Assembly: GCA_947463125.1 (NCBI GenBank)
Contig: CANHQZ010000021.1
Coordinates: forward strand, 1-35,608
Source: Flavobacteriales bacterium
GTDB lineage: Bacteria > Bacteroidota > Bacteroidia > NS11-12g > UBA955
Length of the DNA: 35,608 nucleotides
Reading direction: 5' to 3'
The notes beneath the pieces are model-generated. The model was not told the DNA's origin. It ran no database searches and was given only the letters and a program-made list of their open reading frames with translations. The position numbers and the translations under genes are program-made. This document shows positions 3,925 to 6,744 of this stretch, piece after piece (the stretch's first letter is position 1; every line of letters starts with the position of its first letter).

Positions 3925-5478
3925 TTACTCACCCACAATCGGGTGGCCGGCTTCGTCAAAAAATTCAAGGCGCGACAGACCATAGTTGGGAGCAGCTTCC
4001 AGTTTCAGCCAGCGCTTGTGTTTAAACCACCATTTCAGCCTAATGCTGATTAAACCCTGTTTGAGGTAGTTTGTCACAAGCGGATGGGCTTTCAGTTTCA
4101 GGTGTTTGTGGTTCATATTGTCCCACAAATAAGAAACCGTATTTTCCAGCCTGTTGAGCAGCTGTACGCTGCTCTCCATTCGACCTGTACCGTTGCAGGA
4201 GGGGCAGACCTCGCTGGTGGTGATTTCCATGGCCGGGCGCACGCGTTCGCGGGTGATTTGCACCAGACCGAACTTGCTCATGGGCAGAATGGTGTGTTTA
4301 GCCCGGTCGGTTTTCATGGCTGTGCGCAGCGCATTGTGCAGTTCATTGCGCTTTTTGGGATCTTTCATGTCGATGAAATCAATCACGATGATTCCACCCA
4401 TGTCCCTGAGCCTTATTTGACGTGCCACTTCCTCTACCGCTTCCATGTTCACCTTCATCACGTTTTCCTCGCGGTTTTGAGGATCAAAACTGGTATTGCC
4501 GCTGTTTACGTCTATAACATGCAGCGCTTCTGTATGCTCAATTACCAGATATGCACCACCGCTAAAGGTTACACTTTTCCCGAAGGAACTTTTGATGGCC
4601 CGGTTTATCTGAAACTGATCAAAAATGTGGGTTTTACCCTGATGGAGTTTCAGTATTTTTTCGCTGCCCGGCGAAATGCGCTGCAAATAGGTTTTAAGAT
4701 CCTGCAACATGGTCTGATCATCCACCGCAATTTGGGTAAAGGAATCGTTGAGCATATCTCTGAGCAAGGTATACAGGCGGTTGCCTTCACCCAGCACCAG
4801 ATCGGTCAGTTTTGCCTGTTTGAGGTTGTTTTTTAACTCATCCCATTTTTTGATGAGACCGCGCAAGTCTCTGTCCAGCTCCTCAATTTCAACACCTTCA
4901 CTTACCGTGCGGATGATAACGCCAAAGTTTTCGGTTTTGAGTGATGTTGCAAGATCGCGAAGACGCTTCTTCTCTGCAGGGCTGCCAATTTTTTTACTGA
5001 TAGAGATGGTATTGGTAAAGGGAACCAATACGAAATATCTTCCTGCCAGGCTGATGTCGCATGTAACTTTCGGACCTTTCGTTGACATGGGCTCTTTGAC
5101 AACCTGAACCAGAATACGGTCGCCCACTTTCAAAACCTGGCCAATCTTACCTGTCTTTACAGTCTGAGGCTCAAGATTGAATCGCTCCAGGTCGGCCTGC
5201 TGCATGTTTCCATGCTGCACCAGATGTGTAAATTTTTTTACGGATAAAACATTGGGACCAAGGTCAAAATACGTAAGAAAAGCATCCCTTTCCGCACCAA
5301 TATCAACAAAGGCGGCATTCAGGGTTGGAGAAATTTTCTTGACCTTCGCCAGATAAAAGTTACCGACCTGAAACGAGGAGCCAGAGGACTCCTTATGAAA
5401 CTCGATAAGTTTTTTACCGCTGATTAAGGCTATTTCAATCCCTGACGAATTTTTATGGATTACTAATTCGTTTGACAA
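3925..5478 (-). CDS. rng: Ribonuclease G (RNase E/G family)
   Basis: An endoribonuclease of the RNase E/G family, acting in rRNA maturation and mRNA turnover. At 517 residues it is an RNase G-length protein without the long RNase E scaffold tail. An S1 domain occupies roughly residues 38-130 (FYLAKVKKISPTLNAAFVDI). The catalytic metal ligands are Asp323 (HVIDVNSG) and Asp367 (IVIDFIDM), with the usual spacing of about 44. The zinc link CPSCNGTG is at 425-432. The start is TTG at 5478: the in-frame TAA at 5503-5505 is the stop of the small basic gene just upstream, no ATG lies between, and MSNELVI matches the family N terminus. An AAGG about 10 bases upstream may serve as a ribosome site. Probably co-transcribed with the TPR and 29-residue genes. 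Confidence 0.95.
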   Translation of the reverse strand: MSNELVIHKNSSGIEIALISGKKLIEFHKESSGSSFQVGNFYLAKVKKISPTLNAAFVDIGAERDAFLTYFDLGPNVLSVKKFTHLVQHGNMQQADLERFNLEPQTVKTGKIGQVLKVGDRILVQVVKEPMSTKGPKVTCDISLAGRYFVLVPFTNTISISKKIGSPAEKKRLRDLATSLKTENFGVIIRTVSEGVEIEELDRDLRGLIKKWDELKNNLKQAKLTDLVLGEGNRLYTLLRDMLNDSFTQIAVDDQTMLQDLKTYLQRISPGSEKILKLHQGKTHIFDQFQINRAIKSSFGKSVTFSGGAYLVIEHTEALHVIDVNSGNTSFDPQNREENVMKVNMEAVEEVARQIRLRDMGGIIVIDFIDMKDPKKRNELHNALRTAMKTDRAKHTILPMSKFGLVQITRERVRPAMEITTSEVCPSCNGTGRMESSVQLLNRLENTVSYLWDNMNHKHLKLKAHPLVTNYLKQGLISIRLKWWFKHKRWLKLEAAPNYGLSRLEFFDEAGHPIVGE

Positions 5479-5502
5479 GGGGGTTGACCTTAGTTCGGAT
5501 GA

Positions 5503-5592
5503 TTATTTTTTCTTGTGTCTGTTCTTGCGAAGGCGCTTTTTGCGCTTGTGGGTCGCAATTTTATGACGTTTTCTTTTCTTACCGCTTGGCAT
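5503..5592 (-). CDS. 29-residue lysine/arginine-rich ribosomal-type protein (AURKAIP1/COX24-like)
   Basis: A tiny gene, ATG at 5592 and TAA at 5503-5505, encoding 29 residues that begin MPSGKKRKRHKIATHKRKK and end NRHKKK. About two thirds of the residues are Lys, Arg or His. Bacteroidota genomes carry near-identical small proteins, usually annotated AURKAIP1/COX24-domain, relating them to mitochondrial mS38 and the small actinobacterial bS22; that assignment is from memory. The composition and the operon position support an rRNA-binding role. The ATG lies 2 bases after the TPR gene stop, and the stop is 24 bases before the rng start, in the same reading frame as rng. Coding status is well supported by the phylum-wide motif. 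Exact position on the ribosome is not shown here. Confidence 0.85.
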   Translation of the reverse strand: MPSGKKRKRHKIATHKRKKRLRKNRHKKK

Positions 5593-5594
5593 AT

Positions 5595-6398
5595 TTACTT
5601 GGTTTTATTTCTGTTCTGTACTTTCACCGCCAGATTCAGGTACATCCTTGCATTGACGGAATCTCCCATAAATCCGTATACGTCACTTGCCTGGAAGTAC
5701 CATACAGGGTTTTGGGGCTGCAAAGATATTAATTTTTGGCATTCTTCCGCAGCTTTTTTCCATTGTGCAGATTTTCTAAGCAAATTTAGCCTCAGAAAAC
5801 GGGTTTCCAGGTTATTGCTGTCCATGGCGATGGTTTCACGAAGGGTACCCAAAAACTTCATAGGCTGATTCTCATATTCACTCTGATACACAATGAGCGC
5901 ATTGCGCGCAGGAATGTTTTTCGGATTCAATTTCAGCACCGCATCCACCAGCCTTTTGCCCTGCTGAAAGAGATATGCCGCCACAACCGGGTTATCTATA
6001 CTTTCTGATGCTGCAAAAACGAGTGTTCTTGCAGCGGTTGTAAGGTTTTCTTCGTTGCCCTGTTTCTCTGCGAGCGCACTCTGAATAAAACTTACCAGCG
6101 GTGCATTTCCCGTTTCATTTGCCCATTTCAAGGCCTTCTGGAGGGTATCCTGCGGTAAATCCGTAAGTGGCTGAAACAATATTCTTCCCATCCACTCCGG
6201 TGGCCTGGATTCTGTGAACAGGGCATTGACAAAATCATTTCTGGAAACAGGATCCTGCGGAAGGACCTGTGCAGCCGCCGAAGCACCGGAAGCAGGTTTT
6301 AGCGTTCCTGTAGATGTTTTGAATTTTGGCAAATACAGCAAAACCAGCAATATTGCCAACAGGGCAACAATCCATAGAACGCGGGGCTTTTTTTCCAC
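5595..6398 (-). CDS. Membrane-anchored TPR protein upstream of rng
   Basis: A 267-residue protein with one N-terminal membrane segment at about residues 8-24 (VLWIVALLAILLVLLYL) after a basic start (MEKKPR), so the rest probably lies outside the cytoplasmic membrane. The C-terminal ~150 residues look like TPR helices (NPKNIPARNALIVYQSEY; NPVWYFQASDVYGFMGDSVN). The start is GTG at 6398, forced by an in-frame TAA four codons upstream. It heads a tight unit with the 29-residue gene (2-base gap) and rng. Function is unknown, and a scaffold role is only inference from the repeats. A TAnnTTTG box 4 bases before the GTG predicts its own promoter and a near-leaderless mRNA. Confidence 0.85.
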   Translation of the reverse strand: MEKKPRVLWIVALLAILLVLLYLPKFKTSTGTLKPASGASAAAQVLPQDPVSRNDFVNALFTESRPPEWMGRILFQPLTDLPQDTLQKALKWANETGNAPLVSFIQSALAEKQGNEENLTTAARTLVFAASESIDNPVVAAYLFQQGKRLVDAVLKLNPKNIPARNALIVYQSEYENQPMKFLGTLRETIAMDSNNLETRFLRLNLLRKSAQWKKAAEECQKLISLQPQNPVWYFQASDVYGFMGDSVNARMYLNLAVKVQNRNKTK

Positions 6399-6435: not shown

Positions 6436-6744
6436 TTACTTGCCTGAAACCCGCTTGGTTAGCACTTTGCTGTCCTTCACCTGAGTGGCAAATTCTTTGG
6501 CTGGTTTGAATCTTGCTACATAATGTGCAGGCACAACCAAGCTGGTATTTCGCTTAATATTGCGGGCCACTTTGGTTTTACGCAGTTTTAATTCAAAAGT
6601 TCCAAATCCTCTAAGATAGATGTTGTTTCCACCAACCATAGCGTTCTTCACAACCACAAATAAATTGTCGATGGTATCAGCAATGGCCGTCTTCTCAAGT
6701 CCGGTGCGGACTGCAATCTCATTCACGATTTCTGATTTTGTCAT
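6436..6744 (-). CDS. HU/IHF-family DNA-binding protein
   Basis: A nucleoid protein of the HU/IHF superfamily, acting as a dimer that bends DNA. The 102-residue form begins MTKSEIVNEIAVRTGLEKTA and contains the beta-arm core NNIYLRGFGTFELKLRKTKVARN, with the arm-tip proline (SLVVPAHYVARFKPAKEF). The frame continues 35 codons upstream, but that extension is hydrophobic, runs into mutY and is not family-like; the ATG at 6744 is chosen. A C-rich/G-rich run (six G on the plus strand, 6755-6760) sits just before the start. It is divergent from mutY over 67 AT-rich bases and sits 37 bases upstream of the TPR gene. Confidence 0.95.
   Translation of the reverse strand: MTKSEIVNEIAVRTGLEKTAIADTIDNLFVVVKNAMVGGNNIYLRGFGTFELKLRKTKVARNIKRNTSLVVPAHYVARFKPAKEFATQVKDSKVLTKRVSGK

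Follow-up and report, generated by a model that had tools for sequence, protein, structure and literature searches.

The question raised by this stretch of DNA (35,608 nucleotides from a member of the Flavobacteriales, referred to below as the window) is what is encoded by a very short and strongly basic reading frame located between a gene for a TPR protein and rng, and how it is related to these neighbors. The initial annotation, which named no strand, had described it as an ATG-to-TAA frame of 29 codons, about two thirds of which are Lys, Arg, or His. This was borne out on the minus strand, where positions 5592 to 5503 translate into MPSGKKRKRHKIATHKRKKRLRKNRHKKK followed by the stop codon. 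The peptide contains 11 Lys, 6 Arg, and 3 His (20/29 residues; 17/29 for Lys and Arg alone), and translation of the plus strand at 5503-5592 revealed no comparable frame. The arrangement was also as first described in every detail: the TPR reading frame ends with TAA at position 5595, leaving 2 bases before the ATG at 5592, and the TAA of the short frame (5505 to 5503) is followed, 24 bases on and in the same frame, by the TTG start codon of rng at 5478. The features of the region, listed in their order along the minus strand, are:

6436 to 6744, minus strand: gene of an HU/IHF family DNA-binding protein (PF00216, E = 1.7e-22), with which the conserved string HU - TPR - bS22 - rng begins
5595 to 6398, minus strand: 267-residue reading frame of a TPR protein with a putative N-terminal membrane anchor (MEKKPRVLWIVALLAILLVLLYL...) and weak TPR Pfam matches, directly upstream of the bS22 gene
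5503 to 5592, minus strand: predicted bS22 gene, 29 codons plus TAA, assigned by its match to Flavobacterium johnsoniae bS22 in PDB (7jil_5) and by conservation
5479 to 5502, minus strand: spacer of 24 bases separating the stop codon of bS22 from the start codon of rng; the bS22 frame is open through it here and mostly not in relatives
3925 to 5478, minus strand: rng, encoding a ribonuclease E/G family protein with a TTG start (TIGR00757, E = 1.8e-129; PF10150, E = 4e-95), directly downstream of the bS22 gene

The TPR reading frame begins with a hydrophobic stretch at its N terminus. The start codon of rng (position 5478 in the window) is often TTG or GTG, not ATG, across the genomes of the order.

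To identify the peptide, its 29 residues alone were compared with all solved structures using phmmer, and three chains were retrieved. These were 7jil_5, the bS22 chain of a ribosome that comes from F. johnsoniae according to PMC9976891 (E = 2.3e-10, with identity at 26 of 29 residues); 9i5v_10 (E = 4.4e-10), which its depositor named AURKAIP1/COX24 domain-containing protein; and 8fmw_V, bS22 of Borrelia burgdorferi (E = 3e-6). The F. johnsoniae protein, from the same phylum, aligns over the full length and differs in three substitutions (I12V, L21A, and K23A) and in its size of 30 residues, the window protein having one C-terminal Lys fewer. The 9I5V chain 10 also matches over the full length, though it deviates by S3N, I12M, and R22K and carries one extra Lys at its end. 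The Borrelia protein (PDB 8FMW chain V, bb0822) belongs to another phylum, starts with GUG, and shows several substitutions, yet it aligns end to end, is likewise short and basic, and was, like the window gene, overlooked by annotation. A profile built from ten bS22 sequences found only the same three structures (7jil, 9i5v, and 8fmw); it had taken in two of these three chains, and only the 9i5v match is independent.

Since it is orthologous with F. johnsoniae bS22, the window gene almost certainly encodes bS22, a small, helical, and highly basic component of the 30S subunit, and appears to be an ordinary orthologue. The assignment, made from sequence comparison, agrees with three observations: (i) the peptide is similar over its full length to a chain modelled in a ribosome, (ii) it is about 30 residues long, more than half Lys and Arg, and encoded by a single-copy gene, and (iii) it is conserved under purifying selection. 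The ribosomal role proposed in the initial annotation is thereby supported, both by the 7jil_5 and 8fmw_V matches and by the published structures (PMC10618245, PMC10085706), and bS22 is an already known protein that is found in nearly all Bacteroidota. Judged by its composition alone, the peptide might be a short basic molecule with another role, for example nucleic-acid binding or antimicrobial-like; however, such a role is highly improbable given that a nearly identical protein has been modelled in a ribosome and that the sequence is conserved phylum-wide.

The conservation was assessed in genomes sampled over the phylum, where the peptide is present in 376 of 395 genomes and 168 of 171 genera, with one copy per genome almost everywhere and a single match in the window's own genome. 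Among close relatives, it was found in 38 of 39. The initial annotation had suggested checking whether the peptide and its position are kept across Bacteroidota; besides the peptide itself, the neighborhood proved to be conserved class-wide. All 29 residues are identical in 42 loci of the same order, which comprise 32 distinct DNA sequences and were drawn from two collections, so that some loci probably represent the same genomes twice. In this set, the numbers of variable sites at codon positions 1, 2, and 3 are 7, 0, and 27, respectively, and the first-position changes are synonymous because the protein never changes among the 42 loci. This pattern is the signature of strong purifying selection acting on the bS22 protein, and the 29-codon frame is a genuine gene, far beyond chance.

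The initial annotation had further pointed to a resemblance to AURKAIP1/COX24-type proteins. This part of the proposal holds for position and structure, as reported by others (PMC10085706, PMC10618245), but not at the level of sequence profiles. The window peptide gave no match up to E = 10 to Pfam COX24_C (PF08213), the model for mS38 and AURKAIP1, to which the bS22 of Mycobacterium smegmatis used as a control scores 46 bits (cut-off 23). Nor did it match, even at E = 10, the NCBIfam model of the actinobacterial type, NF047430 ribo_bS22 (curated cut-off 34 bits), with 62.6 bits for the same control, whose sequence had been confirmed by an exact match to solved chains. The F. johnsoniae peptide and another Bacteroidota copy likewise had no match to COX24_C or ribo_bS22, and genome-level searches agreed. 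The actinobacterial bS22 (M. smegmatis; NF047430, PF08213) and mitochondrial mS38 are basic proteins occupying the same small-subunit pocket (PMC10085706, PMC10618245), the former also being similar in size to the window protein, whereas the window peptide has no detectable match to their profiles. The link from the Bacteroidota protein to its actinobacterial and mitochondrial counterparts rests on published structural superposition, not on sequence profiles.

Structural work places bS22 in a pocket formed by helices h2, h27, h44, and h45 of 16S rRNA, where it touches helix H68 of 23S rRNA when the subunits join (PMC10618245). The F. johnsoniae and Mycobacterium proteins occupy the same pocket as that of Borrelia, and mS38 of mitochondria and eL41 of eukaryotes are regarded as analogs of bS22 (PMC10618245). 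The bS22 proteins of Cutibacterium acnes and F. johnsoniae superpose, with 37% identity (PMC10085706). By homology, we infer that the window protein would sit in the h2/h27/h44/h45 pocket of this organism's ribosome. It would be expressed from the HU - TPR - bS22 - rng string, using start and stop codons of its own, fold as a bent helix, and stabilize the 30S core and the subunit interface, and RNase G would be translated from its own start.

A different relation between the two genes had been proposed in the initial annotation, namely that read-through of the bS22 stop codon fuses the peptide to RNase G, which could tether the nuclease to 30S precursors. In the window, no stop codon separates the bS22 TAA from the TTG of rng, and the frame is open through eight codons into rng. 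However, among the 81 loci in which rng lies within 700 bases of bS22, the two genes are in frame in 29 and shifted in 26 and 26, an even spread as expected without selection; the slight in-frame excess stems from the window's own genus, which was sampled several times. Even close relatives sharing the same in-frame 24-base gap have the frame shut by additional stop codons, as at four loci from the window's genus (L031, L039, L041, and L042). Moreover, the spacer ranges from 10 to more than 600 bases, and the bS22 stop is a plain TAA in most loci and TAG or TGA in others. As a conserved mechanism, read-through is already refuted by these observations, and we assign next to no probability to a functional fusion. 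Two apparent long fusions encountered in the search were rejected: that of 478 codons (genome G030) is a long frame without stops in GC-rich (67%) DNA and is not gene-like ahead of the bS22 start, and that of 244 codons (G385) is a TPR gene running into unknown bases (X) just before bS22.

If bS22 and RNase G are translated separately, the conserved adjacency of their genes is still to be considered. In the phylum sample, rng follows bS22 in 17 of 17 loci returned from the same class, and this adjacency extends throughout the order. Upstream of bS22, most same-class loci have the HU and TPR genes, and the TPR gene adjoins bS22 in nearly all of them. In other classes, rng is located elsewhere and does not adjoin bS22. 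There, nine loci (L061, L065, L069 to L072, L074, L078, and L079) have bS22 after the HU gene and/or a TPR-like protein with no rng beside it, and in further loci the neighbors differ altogether. Because HU - TPR - bS22 is kept in other classes without rng, this part of the string has a wider distribution than the link to rng; it looks older or more widely kept, its greater age being deduced from this distribution. RNase G is known to act on the 5' end of 16S rRNA in Escherichia coli, and the ends of the 16S core are near the bS22 pocket. Together with the bS22-rng adjacency in all 17 same-class loci and in those of the order, and with the retention of HU - TPR - bS22 in other classes, this might suggest that the four genes constitute a functional module for 30S maturation, RNase G being assisted in trimming the 16S rRNA ends by the membrane TPR protein or by bS22. 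Such a module seems rather unlikely, since rng lies elsewhere in other classes and the conserved order may reflect mere co-expression of growth genes. Equally, it is a doubtful and quite speculative proposition that the string is a co-regulated 30S maturation module for finishing 16S rRNA in Bacteroidota, through joint action of RNase G, bS22, and the membrane-anchored TPR protein. The conserved gene order is compatible with a ribosome-maturation unit, as suggested in the initial annotation; such a module would add to, not replace, the identification as bS22.

Not every ribosome of the phylum depends on the protein, because it is absent from all seven genomes by which family f37 was sampled (G147, G195, G199, G309, G328, G344, and G388) and from four genomes of one genus (g88 of family f25: G227, G274, G286, and G348), other members of which have bS22. 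These eleven genomes are nearly complete and contain rng; the family f37 loci examined are of 60 to 67% G+C. A bS22 profile search at E values up to 10 in ten of the eleven genomes found no diverged copy, a 13-residue match inside a 305-codon frame being probably due to chance. The absences may represent natural losses of a ribosomal protein. A search for viral copies gave pattern matches, none of which was confirmed.

As an ordinary case of a well-conserved gene for a known ribosomal protein, the finding matters mostly for annotation. Because of its small size, bS22 of Bacteroidota can be overlooked, and it escapes the Pfam and NCBIfam models tested; a 30-residue profile built on sequences of this phylum would recover it from almost all genomes. 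Its class-wide neighborhood with RNase G and its absence from one whole family offer simple ways into the question of its function. The 30-residue sequence of the F. johnsoniae chain is present in PDB entries 7jil, 9oz9, 9ozn, 9ozz, and 9p0e, in which it is named both 30S S22 and 50S L38. As bS22 (30S) and bL38 (50S) are treated as different proteins (PMC10618245), the two names for an identical chain are apparently a labelling clash in PDB.
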